Shown here piece by piece: positions 10,820 to 55,426 of a DNA stretch of 64,000 nt. The position numbers and the translations under genes are program-made. Position 1 is the first letter of the stretch, and every line of letters starts with the position of its first letter. This stretch comes from Mycobacteriaceae bacterium. Lineage in GTDB: Bacteria; Pseudomonadota; Gammaproteobacteria; Burkholderiales; Burkholderiaceae_D. The notes under the pieces were generated by a model. It was not told the origin of the DNA, made no database searches, and saw only the letters and a list, made by a program, of their open reading frames with translations. The DNA lies in assembly GCA_903970145.1 (NCBI GenBank), contig CAJCHO010000072.1, positions 1-64,000 on the forward strand. The letters are read 5' to 3'.

Positions 10820-10943
10820 CTTAGCGGCCGCAGCCAAGCGGCATGGCCCTCATCACAGCACCCATCCCATCCCCTGAAATGCCACCTGCGCAAGATCCGA
10901 TTATAGCGACGCGCAAGCGTCCTGGGGACGCGTTGCTCCGGGC

Positions 10944-11348
10944 TCAGGGTCCGGGCTGGGTCACATTGGTGCCGTCATCGGCCGCGAAGATTTCCTCGGC
11001 CAGGTGAAACGCCGAATTGGCCGCCGGCACTCCGCAATACACGGCGCACTGCAGGAAAACTTCCTTGATTTCGTCACGAGTCACGCCATTGTTGCGGGCA
11101 GCGCGAATGTGCAGGCGCAATTCCTCGCCGCGATTGAGCGCCACCATCATGGCCAGCGTCAGGAGACTGCGTGTGTGCCGCGGCAGGCCGGGTCTGGTCC
11201 AGATCTCGCCCCACGCGTAGCGCGTGATGAAGTCCTGGAACTCGGCGGTGAACTCGGTGGCAGTCTTGCGCGCACGATCGACGTGCGCCGCGCCGAGCAC
11301 GGCCCGACGCACGCCCATCCCTTGCTCACGACGCTTATCGTCATCCAT
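10944..11348 (-). CDS. pcaC: 4-carboxymuconolactone decarboxylase
   Basis: PcaC decarboxylates gamma-carboxymuconolactone to beta-ketoadipate enol-lactone. The 134-residue protein matches family length and carries TRYAWGEIWTRPGLPRHTRS, LTLAMMVALNRGEELRLHIR and the CGVPAANSAFHLAEE end typical of stand-alone PcaC. It overlaps pcaD by one base and is last in the pcaB-pcaD-pcaC series. Confidence 0.95.
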   Translation of the reverse strand: MDDDKRREQGMGVRRAVLGAAHVDRARKTATEFTAEFQDFITRYAWGEIWTRPGLPRHTRSLLTLAMMVALNRGEELRLHIRAARNNGVTRDEIKEVFLQCAVYCGVPAANSAFHLAEEIFAADDGTNVTQPGP

Positions 11349-12142
11349 TACACGCGCCCTTCCAGAAATCCGAGCAAGGCGGAGTTGAACTGCGCGGCCT
11401 GCTCAACGTTGGAGATGTGGGCGGCCTGCAGTTCGACATAGGCGGCCGCTGCAATCCTCTCGGCCAGGAAATGGGCATCCTGCACCGGCGTCGCCTCGTC
11501 AACCGTGCCGCTGACAACCAGAGTAGGCGCGCGAATCGCGCCAAGCGATTCGCGCAGGTCGACATCGCGGATCGCCGCACAGCAGCCGACATAACCGCGC
11601 GGATCGGTGGCAGCGAGGGTAGTCGCCATGCCCGCGATCTGCGCGCTGGCAGTCGAGCGATAGGACGCGGTAAACCAGCGGGCCAGCACCGCGTCCGCGA
11701 TTGCGGCCATGCCGCCCTCGCGCACCGCGTCGATGCGGGAATTCCAGGTGGCCGCCGTGCCGATCTTGGCCGCGCTGTTGCAGATGACGAGGCGCTCGAC
11801 GCGCGATGCCTGGTGAATGCCCAGCCACTGGCCGATGAGGCCACCCATCGAAAGCCCGCAGAAGTGCACCCTCGGCAAGGCCAGCCTGTCGAGTAGTTCA
11901 ATTGCATCGGTGGCCAGCGCCTCAAGGGTGTAGGGACCGTCGGGCACCGCGCTCGCGCCATGGCCGCGCGTATCGTAGCGCAACACCCGAAATCCCTGGC
12001 GCAGGGCATCCATCTGCCCATCCCACATGTGCAGATCAGCGCCCAGCGAATTGGACAGCATCACGACGGGCGCCGTCGGTCCGGCCTGGCTCGGCTCGAG
12101 CAGATAGTGCACTTCCCCGAAACTCAGTTGCGCGCGCGCCAT
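11348..12142 (-). CDS. pcaD: 3-oxoadipate enol-lactonase
   Basis: PcaD hydrolyses beta-ketoadipate enol-lactone to beta-ketoadipate. The 264-residue alpha/beta hydrolase has its nucleophile in GLSMGG (S98), with D215 and H242 as likely triad partners, and the typical opening LSNSLGADLHMWDGQ and DTRGHGAS. It lies 12 bases after the pcaB stop and overlaps pcaC by one base, so the three are translated from one message. Confidence 0.95.
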   Translation of the reverse strand: MARAQLSFGEVHYLLEPSQAGPTAPVVMLSNSLGADLHMWDGQMDALRQGFRVLRYDTRGHGASAVPDGPYTLEALATDAIELLDRLALPRVHFCGLSMGGLIGQWLGIHQASRVERLVICNSAAKIGTAATWNSRIDAVREGGMAAIADAVLARWFTASYRSTASAQIAGMATTLAATDPRGYVGCCAAIRDVDLRESLGAIRAPTLVVSGTVDEATPVQDAHFLAERIAAAAYVELQAAHISNVEQAAQFNSALLGFLEGRV

Positions 12143-12154
12143 GCAATCACTCGC

Positions 12155-13513
12155 TCAGGATGGCTCGCGAGAGCGGGCCAGAACGGCCTCCATCATCGCA
12201 CGGCTCGCACCCAGATAAGCAAGTGGATCAAGTAATCCGGTGATGGTCGGCACGTCCAGATGTGCGCGTACCGCACCGGTTGCTGCCAGTACGTCGGCGA
12301 GCGTGCGCTTTTCTGCCAGCGCCAGCCGGCAGGCGGCCTCGACGAGCTCATGCGCCCTGGCGCGTCCGACGTGGCGCGCCAGTTCCATGCTGACCGCTTC
12401 GGAGAGATTCAGGCCGTGCAGAAGCTCAAGATTGGCGCGCATGCGTGCAGCATCCACTTCAAGGCCTTCCAGGAGGGGTGCGGCGTGCTCGAGAGCCGAG
12501 GCGGTCAGTCGGCACAATTCGGGAAGCACTTCCCACTCCGCCTGCCAGCCGCCAAGGCCGCGTTCATGTTCCTGCACAGCGGCGCTAAAAAGCGTAGCCA
12601 CGAGGCCCGGGGTTCGCGTGGCGCAGGCGAGGATCGCCGCGCAGGCAACCGGATTGCGCTTATGCGGCATCGTCGAGGAGCCACCGCGCCCAACTGCACC
12701 AGGCTCGAAGACCTCGGCCACCTCGGTCTGCATCAGCAGTGCCACGTCGCGCGCAAGCTTGCCAAGGCTGGCAACAAGCCCGGCAGCCATCCCGGCAAAC
12801 TCCAGGATCCGGTCGCGCTGGGCGTGCCAGGGGATGTCAGGGATGACGAGCCCAAGCTCGCTCGCCAGTTCCTGCCTGACCCGCAGACCGTCATCGCGCA
12901 GCGAAGCCAGGGTGCCGCTCGCGCCACCGAACTGCAGCACCAATTGCCCCTCGAGGCGTGTCAGACGACTGCGCTGGCGCAACAGGCCGTCGAGCCAGCC
13001 CGCCGCCTTCAGACCGAAGGTAATCGGCACGGCCTGCTGCAGCCAGGTGCGCCCGGCCATCACGGCAAAGCCATGGCGCTCGACGTGCAGCGTCAATGCC
13101 TTTATCGAGCGCGTGAGCTCGGTCTTCATGAGTTGCAGGGCCGCGCGCAATTGCAACATCAACGCGCTATCGATGACGTCCTGGCTGGTCGCACCCCAGT
13201 GCACGAAACCGGCCGCCAGCTCGTCCTCTGCGGCCACCCGTTCGGTCAGCGCACGAACCAGTGGTATCGCCAGGTTCCCGGCACTCGCCGCCGCGGCGGC
13301 CAGCGCCTGCCGGTCATAGAATTTCTCGTCGCAGTGGCGCGCGATTGTCGCGGCGGCAATCTCGGGAATCAGCCCGCAGCGCGCCTGGGCAGCCGCCAGC
13401 GCCGCCTCAAAGTCGAGCATCGCCTGCAGCTGCGCGCTCTCGCCAAAGATCGCCTGCATCGCGGCGCTGCCAAAAATTCCATCCAAAAGACTGCGGCTGC
13501 TGGCGCCTGTCAC
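12155..13513 (-). CDS. pcaB: 3-carboxy-cis,cis-muconate cycloisomerase
   Basis: PcaB converts beta-carboxymuconate to gamma-carboxymuconolactone. The 452-residue protein belongs to the fumarase/aspartase superfamily and shows its signature GSSTMPHKRNP at residues 278-288, plus HWGATSQDVIDSA. The GTG start at 13513 is preceded by GGGAGG at good spacing. Upstream in-frame residues look non-coding. It starts the pcaBDC segment about 100 bases after the DUF2783 gene. Confidence 0.95.
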   Translation of the reverse strand: MTGASSRSLLDGIFGSAAMQAIFGESAQLQAMLDFEAALAAAQARCGLIPEIAAATIARHCDEKFYDRQALAAAAASAGNLAIPLVRALTERVAAEDELAAGFVHWGATSQDVIDSALMLQLRAALQLMKTELTRSIKALTLHVERHGFAVMAGRTWLQQAVPITFGLKAAGWLDGLLRQRSRLTRLEGQLVLQFGGASGTLASLRDDGLRVRQELASELGLVIPDIPWHAQRDRILEFAGMAAGLVASLGKLARDVALLMQTEVAEVFEPGAVGRGGSSTMPHKRNPVACAAILACATRTPGLVATLFSAAVQEHERGLGGWQAEWEVLPELCRLTASALEHAAPLLEGLEVDAARMRANLELLHGLNLSEAVSMELARHVGRARAHELVEAACRLALAEKRTLADVLAATGAVRAHLDVPTITGLLDPLAYLGASRAMMEAVLARSREPS

Positions 13514-13613
13514 GTCGTTCCTCCCGTATCCTGCTGCCGCACTCCGGCACTGTGCCATCCGTGAAGAGTTGCAGGGCAGAACCCACCCATGATACCCAAG
13601 GGGCGCGCTGCGG

Positions 13614-13820
13614 TCATGACGCCGTGCTGCCGCGGCGCGCGTAATCAAGCGCCGCAATCAGTATTTCGTGCCGACCGATGTGGTTGGCCAATAGGAGGAT
13701 CAGGCGCGCGTTCAGGGCAGCACTTTCGCGATCATCCAGACCGCGATGCACCTCGATGAGGGCCTCATAGAAGTCATCAGGCCGTTCCAGATTGGATGCT
13801 GTCGTGAGTGATTGGCTCAT
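13614..13820 (-). CDS. Small DUF2783 protein
   Basis: A 68-residue protein beginning MSQSLTTASNLERPDDFYEA, with the Asp/Glu-rich core and RLILLLANHIGRHEILIAALD end seen in DUF2783 proteins. Its ATG overlaps the stop of the FAD monooxygenase (ATGA), and members of this family are often found beside such monooxygenases. I infer that it is a partner or stability factor of the monooxygenase. No catalytic motif is visible. Confidence 0.75.
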   Translation of the reverse strand: MSQSLTTASNLERPDDFYEALIEVHRGLDDRESAALNARLILLLANHIGRHEILIAALDYARRGSTAS

Positions 13821-15499
13821 GCTGTCTCCGCGATGTGGCCCAGGGCGCGTTCGCGCGCCTTGTACACTTCCATGGCCTGCAGGCCGTGCCAGCGAGCACA
13901 TACGTGCTGGTCGGGGCGCAGCAGATAAGAGCTGCCATGCGCCATCTCATAGCGCTGCGCGAGCACGCCGCGCACGTCGTGGGCAAACGTGAAGCCTTGC
14001 GGCACTCCGGGGTGCTCGCCCGGCTCTGCGCTCACGACCAGCACCTGGATCTGGTCAGCCAGCGAGTGCAGCTGGCGCAGTTGTTCATCGATCTCGGACT
14101 CGCGCCCCCGCCCCCGATATACCAGGAGGCAGAACCGGCCATCAAGGAGCTCAAGCAGCCAGCGCTCGGCACCGGCGACGACGAGCGGCGCATCGGCGGC
14201 AACGCTGCCTGGTGGCACCCCGGCGTCATAGCGCTCGCTCTGCGGATAATTGAGGACACTGCTGCTCAGTACCGCGGGTACCGACAGTCGTCCGCTATTG
14301 ACAAGGCTTCTGGCGAAAGCGTGTTCGTGTGCCAGACTGAGGACTGCGTCACGAAATAGGCGGCTGGCTACGCTCTTGGGTGTGATGAAATCGGTGCTGC
14401 GCGTCGAGTTGAGCAGGTTCTCATCGGTCGCTTGCTGGCGCTCGGAATCAAAACTTGCCAGCAATCCCGGCCCGGCATCGCCCGCCAGGACGGCAGCGAG
14501 CTTCCACGCCAGATTTTCAGCGTCCTGCAGGCCACCATTGGCGCCGCGCGCACCAAACGGCGAGACACTGTGCGCCGCATCGCCGATGAAGATCACCCGG
14601 TCATGCACGAAACGCTCCATGCGCACGCACGAGAAGGTGTAGACGCTGACCCACTCGAGCTCGAATTCGACTGCCTCGCCAAGCATCGCGCGCAAGCGCT
14701 CCCGGACGCGCCCGGGCTCGCGTTCGGCTACCGGATCGGCGTCCCAGCCGAGCTGGAAATCGATGCGCCAGACATCGTCGGGCTGACGATGCAACAGAGC
14801 CGACTGATTGCGATGAAAGGGCGGATCGAACCAGAACCAGCGCTCGCTCGGGAACGCGGCGCGCATGCGCACATCTGCGATCAGAAAACGGTCCCGAAAG
14901 CTGTGGCCGTGAGCCTGCAGGCCAAGGATCTCGCGCACACTACTGCGGGACCCATCCGCGGCCACGAGGTAGTCGCAGGCGAGGCTGTATCGGCCCCTCG
15001 GAGTTGTGACCGAGAGTTCAGCACCGTCCCTGGTGTTTAGCACGCCCTCGACCCGGTTGCGCCAGCGGATCTCAAGAGCCGGCAGCTCGGCAGCACGCGC
15101 AAGCAGATAAGCCTCGACGTAGTACTGCTGGATATTGATGAAGGCCGGGTAATGCTCATCGCCCCCGGGCTGCAGATCAAAGCTGTACACAAGGCGCTCA
15201 CCAAAAAACACCTTGCCGGTGTTCCAGGAGACGCCCTTGGCGAGGATCGGTGAGATGCAGGCCAGGCGCTCGAAGATTTCCAGCGAGCGCCTGGAAAAGC
15301 AGATGGCGCGCGAACCCGTGGCGAGACTGTCGTCCTCGTCGAGCACGAGCACCTTGATGCCGCGCTGCGCGAGATCGATCGCGCAGGCCAGGCCGACCGG
15401 ACCCGCTCCCACGATGATGACGCGATGCCGCACCGGCGTCGCGGCGACTTCGTCTGGACTTGGCGTCCAGGCGAATTTCCGGGTCTGGAAATCCGGCAT
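13817..15499 (-). CDS. FAD-dependent aromatic-ring-type monooxygenase (PheA/TfdB/MhpA-like)
   Basis: The 560-residue flavoprotein has the three group A hydroxylase fingerprints: GAGPVG for FAD (residues 31-36), the DG motif AADGSRSSVRE (about 181-190), and the GD motif FIGDAAHSVSPFGARGANGG (about 304-323). A C-terminal extension of about 180 residues resembles the thioredoxin-like tail of phenol hydroxylase and MhpA homologues. It starts 11 bases after the MBL-fold gene and overlaps DUF2783. Its place directly upstream of pcaBDC suggests it hydroxylates a compound that feeds protocatechuate, but the substrate cannot be read from the sequence. It is too long to be PobA. Confidence 0.8.
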   Translation of the reverse strand: MPDFQTRKFAWTPSPDEVAATPVRHRVIIVGAGPVGLACAIDLAQRGIKVLVLDEDDSLATGSRAICFSRRSLEIFERLACISPILAKGVSWNTGKVFFGERLVYSFDLQPGGDEHYPAFINIQQYYVEAYLLARAAELPALEIRWRNRVEGVLNTRDGAELSVTTPRGRYSLACDYLVAADGSRSSVREILGLQAHGHSFRDRFLIADVRMRAAFPSERWFWFDPPFHRNQSALLHRQPDDVWRIDFQLGWDADPVAEREPGRVRERLRAMLGEAVEFELEWVSVYTFSCVRMERFVHDRVIFIGDAAHSVSPFGARGANGGLQDAENLAWKLAAVLAGDAGPGLLASFDSERQQATDENLLNSTRSTDFITPKSVASRLFRDAVLSLAHEHAFARSLVNSGRLSVPAVLSSSVLNYPQSERYDAGVPPGSVAADAPLVVAGAERWLLELLDGRFCLLVYRGRGRESEIDEQLRQLHSLADQIQVLVVSAEPGEHPGVPQGFTFAHDVRGVLAQRYEMAHGSSYLLRPDQHVCARWHGLQAMEVYKARERALGHIAETA

Positions 15500-15510
15500 G
15501 CTGGTCGGGC

Positions 15511-16464
15511 TCAACCCTCCAGCGCCTGCCACATGTCGCGATCGCGCTCGGCGGTCCAGATGCGCGGATCCGGGTGGCTGGTCGCCTCGTCAAATGCGCG
15601 GCTCACGTCAAATGGCATGCAGTGATCGAAAATCACCCAGTTGCCGTAGCGCGGCGCCAGCGTTTCATAGGTGCTCCGATAGACCTCACGCAGCGCGAGT
15701 CCGGCGCGTGCGCCGCGTGCGACAGCGCTGTAGAGGGCGGTGATGAATTCGCGGGTACCCGCGAGTCCGGCGCGCACCTCGGCCCTACCCTTTAGGGCAG
15801 CACCGCGCCCCGGCACCAGCCGCTCGGCACCTAAAGCCTCGAGCGCATCAAGCGTGGCCGGCCAATCGCGCAGATAGGCGTCACCGGTATAGGGCGTCGT
15901 CTCGAACTCGACCAGATCGCCACTGAAGAGTACCTTCTCCTGGGGCAGCCAGACGATCGAATCGCCCTTGGTATGTCCGCGTCCGACCTGCAGGATCTGC
16001 ACTTCGAGCTCGCCCATGCGCAGCACCAGCCTGCCGCTAAAGACCAGTGTCGGCCAGGTCAGCCCGGGTACCGATTCGACGGCGCGAAACAGTCGCGGAA
16101 AGCGCTCGATCTCGCTTTGCATATCGGCCGCACCACGCTCAACGATCAGGTCAAAAGTGTCCTGGCTGGCGATCACATGGTCGGCCCCGTAGGCCGAGGC
16201 GCCCAGCACACGTACGGCGTGGTAGTGAGTCAGGGTTACGTACTTGATCGGCTTGTCGCTGACTTCCCTGATGCGACGAATGACATCCTGGGCCATGATC
16301 GGTGTCGCCTGGGTATCAATTACCATCACCGCCTGCTCGCCAATGATCACGCCGGTGTTGGGATCGCCTTCGGCGGTGTAGGCCCAGGCATGCGCTGACA
16401 GCTGCTCGAAGGTGACCTTCTTTTCCACCAGGTCGGCCTGCGACGCGAATTTTTTCTGACTCAT
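15511..16464 (-). CDS. Metallo-beta-lactamase-fold protein with altered zinc motif
   Basis: The 317-residue protein has the MBL fold: an N-terminal beta segment, THYHAVRVLGAS, GRGHTKGD (H164), LFSGDLVE (D183) and a late IFDHCMP. The usual HxHxDH is HYHAVR (H80, H82, V84, R85), so the Asp and third His of the second metal site are missing. Activity with one metal, or a changed function, is likely. It is the first gene of the minus-strand operon that continues with the FAD monooxygenase and DUF2783, and it is divergent from pcaI. Confidence 0.78.
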   Translation of the reverse strand: MSQKKFASQADLVEKKVTFEQLSAHAWAYTAEGDPNTGVIIGEQAVMVIDTQATPIMAQDVIRRIREVSDKPIKYVTLTHYHAVRVLGASAYGADHVIASQDTFDLIVERGAADMQSEIERFPRLFRAVESVPGLTWPTLVFSGRLVLRMGELEVQILQVGRGHTKGDSIVWLPQEKVLFSGDLVEFETTPYTGDAYLRDWPATLDALEALGAERLVPGRGAALKGRAEVRAGLAGTREFITALYSAVARGARAGLALREVYRSTYETLAPRYGNWVIFDHCMPFDVSRAFDEATSHPDPRIWTAERDRDMWQALEG

Positions 16465-16581
16465 CTGGATCCTTCCCGCCAGCGCACGGCGCGCAGCGAA
16501 TGACTGTAGGGAACCGCTCCCCGCAGGCTAAGGGTCCGCCTGACCGGATGGTGGCGGCCTGCGCTACACTCTAGCCCATAT

Positions 16582-16592
16582 TGGCACTGCCA
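16582..16592. promoter_or_regulatory. Short palindrome in the MBL/pcaI divergent region
   Basis: TGGCACTGCCA is a perfect 11-base palindrome (TGGCA-C-TGCCA) located 26 bases before pcaI, in the 153-base divergent region. It could be a regulator site for the pca genes, but no pca regulator is present in the window and an arm this short can arise by chance. Confidence 0.25.
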
Positions 16593-16617
16593 CGTATCGG
16601 GCCGCAACGCATCCGTC

Positions 16618-17307
16618 ATGGTCAACAAGATTTTCGAGTCGGCCGAAGCCGCCCTCATCGACGTTCCCGACGGCGCGACCGTCATGATTGGTGGATTTGG
16701 CGGCGCCGGGCAGCCGGCCCACCTAATCGATGCCCTGATCGATCAGGGTGCGCGCGAGCTGACCGTCATCAATAATAACGCGGGCAATGGTGAAGTCGGT
16801 CTGGCTGCGCTGCTCAAGGCCGGGCGGGTACGCAAGATCATTTGCTCGTTTCCGCGCCAGGCAGACTCGCAGGTCTTCGACGGCCTGTATCGGGCCGGCA
16901 AAATCGAACTTGAACTCGTTCCCCAAGGGAACCTGGCCGAGCGTATTCGCGCCGCTGGTGCCGGTATCGGCGGATTCTTCACGCCGACCGGACACGGTAC
17001 CGATCTCGCGCGCGGCAAGGAGACCCGGGTGATCGCTGGGCGTGACTACGTGCTCGAATACCCGCTTCATGCCGACTTTGCGCTGATTGCCGCATATCGC
17101 GGCGATCGCTGGGGCAACCTCACCTACCGCAAGACAGCGCGCAACTTCGGGCCGATCATGGCGATGGCCGGCAAGGTCACTGTGGCGCAGGTCGACGGTC
17201 TGGTTGAACTCGGTTGCCTCGATCCCGAAGCGATCGTCACTCCCTCGATTTTCGTGCAGCGCGTGGTGAGCCTGAATCCGCAGCGCGCGCATGGAGGTGC
17301 TCCGTGA
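16618..17307 (+). CDS. pcaI: 3-oxoadipate CoA-transferase, subunit A
   Basis: PcaI with PcaJ transfers CoA from succinyl-CoA to beta-ketoadipate. The 229-residue protein starts MVNKIFESAEAALIDVPDGA and shows the CoA-transferase family I small-subunit motif MIGGFGGAGQPAHLIDAL, plus GGFFTPTGHGTDLA and YRGDRWGNLTYR. It overlaps pcaJ by 3 bases. No clear ribosome site precedes the ATG. Confidence 0.93.
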   Translation: MVNKIFESAEAALIDVPDGATVMIGGFGGAGQPAHLIDALIDQGARELTVINNNAGNGEVGLAALLKAGRVRKIICSFPRQADSQVFDGLYRAGKIELELVPQGNLAERIRAAGAGIGGFFTPTGHGTDLARGKETRVIAGRDYVLEYPLHADFALIAAYRGDRWGNLTYRKTARNFGPIMAMAGKVTVAQVDGLVELGCLDPEAIVTPSIFVQRVVSLNPQRAHGGAP

Positions 17308-17966
17308 GCTTGCCGAACAATTTCCGGCGTGCCACGCGCGACCAGATCGCAGCACGGGTAGCAGCCGACATCCCGCCCGGTGCCTATGTCAATCTTGGCA
17401 TCGGGCTGCCCACTCTGGTTGCCAATCATCTGGATCCCGTCCGCGAGATTATCCTGCACACGGAGAACGGACTGCTCGGGATGGGGCCGGCGCCTGCCGC
17501 CGGCAGCGAGGACTGGGATCTGATTAACGCCGGCAAGCAGCCGGTTACCCAGGTCGCTGGTGCGAGCTTTTTTCATCACGCCGATTCCTTTGCGATGATG
17601 CGTGGCGGTCACCTCGACATCTGCGTGCTGGGCGGCTTCCAGGTTTCCGAGACGGGCGACCTTGCCAACTGGCACACCGGCGCACCGGACGCGATTCCGG
17701 CGGTCGGTGGCGCCATGGATCTGGCAATCGGCGCCAAGAAGGTATTCGTGATGATGGAGCACCTGACCAAGTCAGGCGAGAGCAAGATCGTGCGCCAGTG
17801 CAGCTATCCGCTTACAGGCGTGGGCTGCGTGACCCGGATCTATACCGACCTCGCAGTACTGGATGTCGAGTCCGCGGGGCTGCGTATCGTCGAGCTATTG
17901 ACTGACCTGTCGGCAAGTCAGTTAAGTGAGATTTCAGGTGTCACCCTCCTGCCAGCGCTGCAATAG
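17304..17966 (+). CDS. pcaJ: 3-oxoadipate CoA-transferase, subunit B
   Basis: The 220-residue partner of PcaI carries the catalytic glutamate in HTENGLLGMG (E54), with YVNLGIGLPTLVANH before it. The GTG start at 17304 overlaps the pcaI stop (GTGA) and is preceded by GGAGG inside pcaI. Together the pair makes beta-ketoadipyl-CoA. The thiolase that would complete the pathway (pcaF) is not in this window. Confidence 0.94.
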   Translation: MSLPNNFRRATRDQIAARVAADIPPGAYVNLGIGLPTLVANHLDPVREIILHTENGLLGMGPAPAAGSEDWDLINAGKQPVTQVAGASFFHHADSFAMMRGGHLDICVLGGFQVSETGDLANWHTGAPDAIPAVGGAMDLAIGAKKVFVMMEHLTKSGESKIVRQCSYPLTGVGCVTRIYTDLAVLDVESAGLRIVELLTDLSASQLSEISGVTLLPALQ

Positions 17967-26921: not shown

Positions 26922-28348
<1,427 letters not shown>

Positions 28349-53390: not shown

Positions 53391-53723
53391 ATGATTCCAG
53401 GTGAAATGCTGATCGAAGCCGGCGCGATAGAAATCAACGTCGGGCGTCCAACCAGGTCGCTCGAGGTCGCAAATACCGGCGATCGCCCGGTCCAGGTCGG
53501 CTCGCACTTCCATTTTTTCGAAGTCAACGAGGCCCTGCGCTTTGACCGGATGGCGGCACGCGGCTGGCGCCCTAATATCGCCGCCGGCACTGCGGTTCGT
53601 TTCGAGCCCGGTCAGGTGCGCACCATCGAGCTGGTCGCGCTCGACGGAGCACGCGTGGTGTATGGATTCAATGGCGCGGTGATGGGAGCGCTCGATGCGC
53701 CCGGATCGGGAGGTTCGCGATGA
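53391..53723 (+). CDS. ureB: Urease beta subunit
   Basis: The 110-residue beta subunit starts [20 protein letters not shown] and has [16 protein letters not shown] and [13 protein letters not shown], the core of the family. The ATG at 53391 has GAGGA 5-9 bases upstream; the in-frame codons before it overlap the ureA end. The stop overlaps ureC by 4 bases. Confidence 0.98.
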
Positions 53724-55426
53724 GCCCGTCGATCACAAAGCGTGCCTATGCCGAAATGTTCGGCCCGACGACAGGCGACCGCGTGCGGCTGGCCGACACG
53801 GCCCTCGTGGTCGAAGTCGAGCGCGACTTCACCGTCTATGGTGAGGAGGTCAAGTTCGGTGGCGGCAAGGTGATTCGCGACGGCATGGGGCAGAGTCAGC
53901 GCGTCTCAAGCGAATGTGCCGACACCGTGATTACCAATGCTCTCATCATCGACCACTGGGGCATTGTAAAAGCGGACATCGGCATCAAGAACGGCCGCAT
54001 CGAGCGCATCGGCAAGGCCGGCAATCCGGACATCCAGCCGCGGGTAGACATCGTCATCGGCGCTGCCACTGAAATCATAGCGGGTGAAGGCATGATCATC
54101 ACCGCAGGGGGTGTCGACAGTCATATTCACTTCATCTGTCCGCAGCAGATCGAGGAAGCCCTGATGTCGGGGGTAACGACCATGCTTGGCGGTGGCACCG
54201 GACCTGCGACGGGGACCTTCGCGACCACGGTGACGCCCGGTCCCTGGCATCTGGAGATGATGCTGCTCGCCGCCGAACACTATCCGATGAATCTTGGCTT
54301 TCTCGGCAAGGGCAATGCGAGCCTGCCTGCGCCCCTCATGGAACAGATCGCAGCCGGCGCCATCGGCCTGAAACTGCATGAAGACTGGGGCACTACGCCA
54401 GCGGCGATCGACAACTGCCTGACGGTGGCCGATGCCACTGACACCCAGGTGGCAATCCATACCGACACGCTCAATGAGGCGGGATTCGTCGAGGCGTCGA
54501 TCGCCGCATTCAAGGGGCGCACCATCCACACCTACCACACCGAAGGTGCCGGCGGTGGCCATGCCCCCGACATCATCCGCGTCTGCGGAGAGAACAATGT
54601 GCTGCCCTCCTCGACCAATCCGACCAGACCCTATACCGTCAACACGCTCGATGAACATCTCGACATGCTGATGGTGTGCCACCACCTGGACGCCGGGATC
54701 GCCGAAGATATCGCATTCGCCGAATCACGGATTCGCAAGGAGACCATCGCCGCCGAGGACATCCTGCATGATCTTGGCGCCTTCTCGATGCTCTCTTCGG
54801 ACTCGCAGGCGATGGGACGCGTCGGTGAAGTCATCATGCGCACCTGGCAGACCGCCCACAAGATGCGCATGCAGCGCGGCAGCCTTCCCGGGGACAGCGC
54901 GCGCAATGACAATCTGCGCGTCAAACGCTATGTCGCCAAATACACCATCAATCCTGCCCTCACTCATGGCATTGCGCATGAGGTCGGCTCCATCGAAGTC
55001 GGCAAATGGGCCGATCTGGTGGTCTGGAAGCCGGCCTTCTTTGGCGTGAAGCCTTTTCTCGTCATCAAGGGCGGCACGATCGCGGCGGCCGCCATGGGCG
55101 ACCCGAACGCCTCGATTCCGACACCCCAGCCGGTGCATTATCGACCCATGTTCGGTGCGCATGGCAAAGCCGTCACCCGCGGTTCGCTAACCTTTGTATC
55201 GAAGGCGGCGCTCGATGCCGATATCGGGGGGCGCCTCGGGCTCGCCAAACCGCTTGCCGCCGTGCGCGGCTGTCGCAGCGTCACCAAGCGCGACATGGTA
55301 CACAACAGCCTGACACCTAAAATCACGGTCGATCCCGAAACCTATGAGGTCGTCGCCGATGGCGAGAAACTGGTCTGCGAACCGGCGACGGAGTTGCCAA
55401 TGGCCCAACGCTACTTTCTTTTCTGA
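53720..55426 (+). CDS. ureC: Urease alpha subunit
   Basis: UreC carries the dinickel site that hydrolyses urea. The 568-residue protein has all active-site residues: H135 and H137 (SHIHF), carbamylated K218 (GLKLHEDWG), H247, H273, the mobile flap C320-H321 (MVCHHLD) and D361 (SSDSQAMGR). Length is normal and no disruption is seen. Confidence 0.99.

Follow-up and report, generated by a model that had tools for sequence, protein, structure and literature searches.

In Pseudomonas putida U a flavoprotein, MhaA (566 residues), and a coupling protein, MhaB (60 residues), together hydroxylate 3-hydroxyphenylacetate at C-6, according to the available excerpt of PMC3053370. The same excerpt proposes BxeA2727 (560 residues) and BxeA2726 (60 residues) of Paraburkholderia xenovorans LB400, encoded beside hmgA1, as the equivalents of MhaA and MhaB. 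The excerpt of PMC10983741 has the LB400 MhaA increased on 3-hydroxyphenylacetate and 4-hydroxyphenylacetate without statistical significance, while MhaB was not detected. Here we study a trio of genes on the minus strand of a 64,000-nucleotide stretch of bacterial DNA (assembly GCA_903970145.1, contig CAJCHO010000072.1, positions 1 to 64,000; this whole stretch is the window in what follows). The trio encodes a metallo-beta-lactamase-fold protein (MBL), a monooxygenase that depends on flavin adenine dinucleotide (FAD; the enzyme is called FMO below) and a small DUF2783 protein, and it lies beside pca genes. We find it reasonably probable that the trio is an MhaAB-like, homogentisate-forming hydroxylase, with DUF2783 as the coupling subunit and MBL as an accessory hydrolase, which came to lie beside pca in one lineage.

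Gene order and families of the trio

The first gene of the trio, MBL (15511-16464, minus strand), codes for 317 residues (Lactamase_B, 1.8e-14). After 11 bases (15500-15510) it is followed by FMO (13817-15499, minus strand; 560 residues from an ATG start; FAD_binding_3, 3.8e-60), which shares an ATGA (13817-13820) with the gene of the DUF2783 protein (13614-13820, minus strand; 68 residues; PF10932, 5.3e-27). All three frames are intact. The order on this strand continues with pcaB, pcaD and pcaC, and pcaIJ is divergent. An earlier reading of this DNA, made without database searches (the sequence-only reading), had reported the same 11-base gap, ATGA overlap and family names, and all of these are confirmed. 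It also let the trio run straight into pcaBDC, which needs correction: 97 bases (13517-13613), with no gene in them, separate DUF2783 from the ATG of pcaB at 13516.

FMO scores 791 bits against NF006002/PRK08132 (cut-off 416), and it stays below every cut-off shown for MhpA (PRK06183), with 206 bits against 546 and 199 against 390. These scores place it in the NF006002 subfamily and not in MhpA proper. Further, FMO (contig C72 of the host genome, G000) is not among the three matches of G000 to the PobA model TIGR02360. On curated family scores, a PobA-like or MhpA-like entry enzyme was therefore rejected. The description of FMO in the sequence-only reading, a 560-residue enzyme of the PheA/MhpA type and not PobA, holds for the length and for PobA, but the MhpA part gives way to NF006002.

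The AlphaFold model of FMO predicts a class A flavin hydroxylase fold with confidence (mean predicted local distance difference test, pLDDT, of 89), and the solved folds that match it best are PieE, GrhO5, RslO9, RubL and HbpA. The C-terminal domain, at about residues 430-554, matches PF21274 with 22.9 bits, below the cut-off of 27.5. Of the FMO alignment columns, 175 show at least 92% conservation across 113 other rows; 167 of these are unchanged in the window FMO, so that most family-conserved residues are retained.

FMO and DUF2783 as a pair

Neighbourhoods were compared at 239 loci in four samples: 103 from relatives and a family sample (the relative group), 40 from the phylum, 16 from plasmids and 80 from a set named genome_contigs. 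The loci of the first two samples were chosen by DUF2783, those of the other two by FMO. The relative group omits three weak PF10932 places (G138:C12, G253:C14 and G247:C45), and the phylum sample, 40 of 62 places outside G000 with two below the cut-off excluded, leans to strong matches. Labels of neighbouring genes come from tblastn with score thresholds against a fixed set of references, and an aromatic gene outside this set would go unseen.

DUF2783 lies directly behind FMO at 81 of the 103 relative-group loci and at all of the phylum (40/40), plasmid (16/16) and genome_contigs (80/80) loci. Eight of the genome_contigs loci are also among the family or phylum loci, which leaves 231 distinct loci, and the two genes are directly adjacent in 209 of these. 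FMO and DUF2783 are thus a near-obligate pair. Of the FMO-DUF2783 loci of the four samples, 74, 33, 15 and 67, respectively, also have an MBL gene no more than 4.5 kb away on the same strand.

The window DUF2783 protein scores 93.7 bits against PF10932 (gathering cut-off 25). In the literature searched, one paper mentions DUF2783 and none mentions the accession PF10932. It is predicted to form three helices (mean pLDDT 92.6), and this model has no match among solved structures with E up to 0.001.

In LB400 an FMO (open frame of 570 residues), a frame of 66 residues and hmgA stand in a row at locus L310. We take the first two to be BxeA2727 and BxeA2726, the slight differences in length presumably coming from the choice of start. 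With 745 bits against NF006002 (cut-off 416), this FMO belongs to the subfamily of the window FMO. Chromosome 2 of LB400 carries a separate MBL-FMO-DUF2783 trio, whose FMO is 57% identical to that of the window.

The small proteins were compared through six MhaA-like genes with a small gene behind them, one at L310 and five found when 274 genomes were searched across the class; the search gave a sixth locus too, L324, which is a usual DUF2783 trio. Within the short flanks of the six genes, hmgA lies behind L310 only, and an FAH-like gene stands beside L320. Three of the six MhaB-type proteins pass the PF10932 cut-off of 25 (25.2, 27.0 and 29.8 bits), one reaches 22.7, and two, the LB400 protein among them, have no match. 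When the six are aligned with nine DUF2783 proteins by hhalign, the result is 96.6% with E 7e-10; for the LB400 protein alone it is weaker (42.7%, E 2.5e-4). The profile comparison indicates that DUF2783 and MhaB-type proteins most likely belong to one superfamily, as distant homologues. Together with the near-constant adjacency, this homology supports what the sequence-only reading had proposed for DUF2783, a partner of the monooxygenase.

Linkage to homogentisate genes

Within 7.5 kb, hmgA is found at 22 of 103 relative-group, 28 of 40 phylum, 13 of 16 plasmid and 29 of 80 genome_contigs loci. In the phylum and plasmid loci the nearby ring-cleavage gene of the searched set is nearly always hmgA, not pca. 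The plasmid trios with hmgA, most of which also have fahA or an FAH-like gene and often maiA and a MarR regulator, come from Roseomonas, Gemmobacter, Sinorhizobium, Dinoroseobacter, Paracoccus (two), Tropicibacter, Neorhizobium, Loktanella, Sphingobium, Sulfitobacter (hmgA only), Pseudohalocynthiibacter and Alloyangia. The Sphaerotilus plasmid trio has a VOC protein and fahA without hmgA, and those of Bosea and Variovorax have none.

A second common arrangement is seen in Burkholderia-type genomes, where one or two IclR genes stand against MBL-FMO-DUF2783. IclR occurs at 48 of the 80 genome_contigs loci, nine of which also have hmgA; for the large IclR-linked group the reference-set labels show no hmgA or pca ring-cleavage gene within reach. 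Genes of one MFS transporter family accompany this arrangement (19 of 112 loci); in the representative L155 the transporter gene comes immediately after the trio. In five Pandoraea loci pcaIJF lies behind the trio. The sequence-only reading had named trios located mostly away from aromatic genes as the outcome that would speak against an entry role, and what we see is divided: hmgA is near the trio in the proportions given above, and the IclR-linked group is the part that lacks such a neighbour.

In the host genome, G000 (completeness 94.55%, contamination 2.47%), a complete hmgA lies at C115:830-2092 and a second one, a contig-end piece, at C29:5181-5996, each with an FAH-like gene beside it. 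Homogentisate made by the trio could thus be degraded. One of the three PobA matches of G000, at C62:27549-28715, is above the cut-off, so the trio is not needed for 4-hydroxybenzoate.

Co-occurrence was tested in 60 relatives, G000 included, with phylogeny ignored. In genomes with DUF2783 hmgA is present in 9 of 12, against 10 of 48 in the others (p 0.0008), and the association is also seen in pca-negative genomes (4/5 against 7/41, p 0.009).

A VOC protein in the place of HmgA

A DUF2783 match is present in 18 genomes of genus g5. Nine of them have hmgA between DUF2783 and fahA (L060, L183, L193, L207, L210, L222, L227, L232 and L239), and the other nine have a VOC gene of about 178 residues there (L173-L176, L182, L188, L195, L208 and L219). 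Genome-wide, hmgA is present in 9 of 9 genomes of the first set and in 0 of 9 of the second (p 4e-5, phylogeny ignored). Since fahA is kept where the VOC gene occupies the place that hmgA has in sister genomes, the product would be of the same fumarylacetoacetate type.

The VOC proteins keep an H-H-E triad, and the one protein compared resembles structure 9u42, 'Glyoxalase' (2.3e-70). A literature search on 9u42 returned nothing, and the listings of the literature searched hold no VOC-type homogentisate-cleaving enzyme. Counter to a simple swap, VOC and hmgA stand together in L279, L287 and L291, and of the VOC-bearing genomes, two (G060 and G089) have hmgA as well, while G365, G062, G659, G644 and G645 do not. 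The VOC protein is a candidate for homogentisate ring cleavage and, if the swap with HmgA is true, it would be a second fold for this reaction.

The pca-linked lineage

Besides the window, pca ring-cleavage genes lie near the trio at one of the 239 loci: L224 of genome G074, which belongs to the same family as the host and to another genus. At the thresholds used, the other 238 loci have no pcaBDCGH gene, apart from two weak matches of 35-37% identity (pcaH at L063, 37%; pcaC at L216, 35%) that we do not take as real. The order at L224 is pcaJI (divergent), coxS, coxL, MBL, FMO, DUF2783, a regulator on the other strand, and then pcaH, pcaG, pcaB, pcaD and pcaC. The regulator is of the PcaR/PcaU/PobR family (315 bits, cut-off 285). 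Identity to the window is 80% for MBL, 60% for FMO and 69% for DUF2783. Among the matches of the window proteins, L224 ranks first for FMO and MBL and third for DUF2783. Like the host, G074 has PobA.

An FMO tree was made by a quick method from 124 of 218 FMOs, near copies and short rows having been removed. In it the two pca-linked FMOs are sisters (Shimodaira-Hasegawa-like approximate likelihood ratio test, SH-aLRT, 98). The larger clade around them (support 99) has 72 rows and is mixed in setting, with 33 hmg, 23 IclR and 12 without either, and their nearest rows are hmg-linked (support 88). We infer that the linkage of trio and pca is one old event and not chance, but rare.

At L224:3370-6218, genes for CoxS- and CoxL-like subunits of a molybdenum hydroxylase precede MBL, with no gene for a third subunit between coxL and MBL. 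Such an enzyme was considered as a regular partner and rejected, as it adjoins the trio only in L224; eight further matches among 240 loci (28-52%) lie mostly at the edge of the locus.

The MBL protein

The closest solved structure to MBL is 8d2z (E 1.5e-131), on which a literature search found nothing related by title. MBL scores 57 bits against 6uxu and 110 bits against SoxH-related models, for which the cut-off is 300. The canonical motif of dinuclear-zinc MBL proteins is HxHxDH. In the alignment of trio MBL proteins (187 of 194, seven short ones being left out), all 187 have H80-Y-H82-A-V84-R85 in its place, and H164, D183 and H281 are invariant in all 187. Judged by HxHxDH, the window MBL falls outside the dinuclear-zinc hydrolases. 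From these residues, the first zinc site can probably form, whereas the second would be without its Asp and His. The sequence-only reading had MBL open an ester or lactone. Our guess is that it may be a hydrolase, with an ester, lactone or thioester from the route as its substrate.

Proposed route and its alternatives

In the route that we propose, FMO and DUF2783 would work together as an MhaAB-like two-component flavoprotein hydroxylase. FMO would add a hydroxyl group to a phenolic acid, with 3-hydroxyphenylacetate as the best guess, at the position para to the existing one, and homogentisate or a closely related hydroquinone would result. The three-helix DUF2783 protein would serve as the coupling subunit, through which flavin reduction becomes productive, and MBL would be an accessory hydrolase within this route. 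The HmgA encoded elsewhere in the host genome would then cleave the product. The trio would have been placed beside the pca genes once, in an ancestor common to one other sampled lineage, and retained there.

A number of observations weigh against this proposal. The authors of the LB400 work left the role of the MhaA candidate to be confirmed (excerpt of PMC3053370), and the window FMO is about 40% identical to that candidate (41-42%), so a shared substrate is not assured. The hmgA genes of the host are on other contigs than the trio, and the window thus has no linkage to hmgABC; in G074 hmgA was not found, in a draft that is 91% complete and consists of 330 contigs. DUF2783 also goes with pcaG (7/12 against 7/48, p 0.004), less strongly than with hmgA, and in hmgA-negative genomes its association with pca is borderline (2/3 against 4/38, p 0.05). 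Further, the window FMO departs from the consensus in 8 of the 175 conserved columns, where L224 has 5 departures and the other rows a median of 2 and a maximum of 21, and its end branch in the tree is 0.84 against a median of 0.29.

The pairing itself has gaps, too. No FMO above the threshold was found at 22 of the 103 relative-group loci. At two of them (L182 and L247) part of an FMO stands beyond a contig end; L222 is itself truncated at a contig end, and beside the DUF2783 gene of L238 there is a short match to the FMO C-terminus. This leaves 18 loci, not cut by contig ends, without an adjoining FMO or FMO piece. Sixteen of the 18 adjoin a SLAC1-type channel, 12 of these 16 also a DJ-1/AraC regulator, and L255 and L257 have neither. 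Given the SLAC1-type settings, coupling need not be the sole role of DUF2783.

In the main alternative explanation the pca-linked branch was re-used: starting from some other aromatic acid, the trio would make protocatechuate or an intermediate that joins the pathway at pcaB/pcaIJ. In its favour, G074 has the arrangement too, there with pcaHGBDC separated from the trio by a PcaR-family regulator, with divergent pcaIJ, molybdenum hydroxylase subunits ahead of the trio and no hmgA found; the two FMOs form a supported clade, and the pcaIJF genes of the Pandoraea loci fit as well. The long branch and the many departures of the window FMO point the same way, as does its rank of 14th when 187 trios are ordered by divergence of FMO versus MBL, the most diverged first. 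However, L224 ranks 90th in that order, and the FMO identity of the pca-linked pair (0.60) is within the usual spread for pairs with like MBL identity (mean 0.63, standard deviation 0.04), and because of this we give little weight to faster FMO evolution after a move to pca. Shared private residues were likewise discarded as a sign of new specificity: the pair has one, A358T, and 12 control pairs have 0 to 13. With 167 columns kept, PobA and hmgA in the host, an incomplete G074 draft and no pcaBDCGH genes elsewhere beyond the two weak matches, re-use seems unlikely to us, and it is the missing hmgA of the G074 draft that keeps its probability low rather than slight. We hold it improbable, too, that the 3-oxoadipate pathway captured the trio, turning a homogentisate-forming family into a protocatechuate entry with DUF2783 coupling and, in G074, a molybdenum hydroxylase.

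The same evidence bears on the suggestion of the sequence-only reading that FMO is the entry enzyme for protocatechuate or a related catechol. An aromatic-ring hydroxylase is supported, and the pca linkage does recur in G074, but protocatechuate is not the leading product in view of the many relatives with hmgA and fahA, the hmg-linked nearest rows of the tree, the conserved columns, and the PobA and hmgA of G000. A different phenol could also be the substrate, giving a hydroquinone other than homogentisate with a downstream route of its own, and the linkage to hmgA would then reflect the general clustering of aromatic genes. The large IclR group without nearby hmgA and the VOC proteins at the expected place of HmgA in many loci agree with this; the fahA that genus g5 keeps when VOC replaces hmgA points instead to a fumarylacetoacetate-type product, and we regard this explanation as quite doubtful. 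Last, the trio might be a passenger beside the pca genes, metabolically unconnected to them and of little use to the host. The 97-bp gap to pcaB, with no gene in it, would allow this, but three intact frames, mostly kept family-conserved residues and a linkage retained in two genera despite only 60% FMO identity make it very improbable.

Through this comparison DUF2783, a Pfam family of unknown function, gains a testable role. As homologues of MhaB-type coupling subunits, its members would let many 'FAD-dependent oxidoreductase' annotations be read as two-component hydroxylases. The locus is also a caution on inferring a substrate from the operon alone: this trio is at pca, and its family is often with hmg.

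Other settings of DUF2783

The SLAC1-linked DUF2783 loci (L242-L246, L248-L252, L256 and L258-L262) are a second, unexplained setting of the family. Their DUF2783 proteins are 37-48% identical to the reference DUF2783 (tblastn), and no flavin hydroxylase of the trio FMO family was found at these loci. In Bradyrhizobium diazoefficiens a VOC-FMO-DUF2783 operon (bll2330-bll2329-bsl2328) is listed among the genes that go down when the denitrification regulator NnrR is mutated, according to the excerpt of PMC6710368; dependence on NnrR, as far as this excerpt goes, is odd for an oxygen-dependent hydroxylase.

Neighbouring genes

The three pca genes behind the trio are all on the minus strand and above their equivalog cut-offs: pcaB, 3-carboxy-cis,cis-muconate cycloisomerase (12155-13516; NF006554, 621.6 bits, cut-off 595), pcaD, 3-oxoadipate enol-lactonase (11348-12142; TIGR02427, 321 bits, cut-off 256), and pcaC, 4-carboxymuconolactone decarboxylase (10944-11348; TIGR02425, 187 bits, cut-off 156). 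Divergent from the trio, on the plus strand, are the CoA-transferase subunits A and B, pcaI (16618-17307; TIGR02429, 374 bits) and pcaJ (17310-17966, start not settled; TIGR02428, 298 bits). The genes of protocatechuate 3,4-dioxygenase stand apart from the operon, about 9-10 kb away at 26922-28345 on the minus strand: pcaG, the alpha subunit (26922-27545; TIGR02423, 255 bits), and pcaH, the beta subunit (27542-28345, start not settled; TIGR02422, 355 bits).

A scan of 10900-16700 for promoters and terminators gave matches no more numerous than in shuffles. The single promoter-like match, against 0.8 expected, overlaps the gap between DUF2783 and pcaB. A promoter in this gap was rejected, as the result is not above chance, and co-transcription of DUF2783 and pcaB is thereby neither shown nor excluded.

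Elsewhere in the window, the 5' ureB small RNA family matches 53873-54158 on the minus strand (103 bits, gathering cut-off 40). The match lies inside a plus-strand frame (53720-55426) that reads, by eye, as a urease subunit.

Comparison with known systems

PobA, the 4-hydroxybenzoate 3-hydroxylase that feeds protocatechuate, is present elsewhere in G000 but is of another family, whose model has 390 positions. The window MBL shares its fold with chlorothalonil dehalogenase and with zinc hydrolases related to SoxH, from which it differs by its score under the SoxH cut-off and by HYHAVR in place of HxHxDH. With class A flavin hydroxylases of the MhpA type the window FMO has in common the FAD_binding_3 domain and a predicted fold near PieE and HbpA, while it remains below the MhpA model cut-offs. 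To our knowledge, MhpA-type enzymes have no small partner.

The closest likeness is to MhaAB, a comparison that uses the LB400 candidate and not the P. putida U sequence. In both systems a flavoprotein of about 560 residues is directly followed by a small protein of about 60 residues; the LB400 candidate belongs to NF006002 like the window FMO, and the small proteins are homologous. The window trio differs in having a third member, MBL, in its lack of linkage to hmgABC, and in its place at the pca genes.

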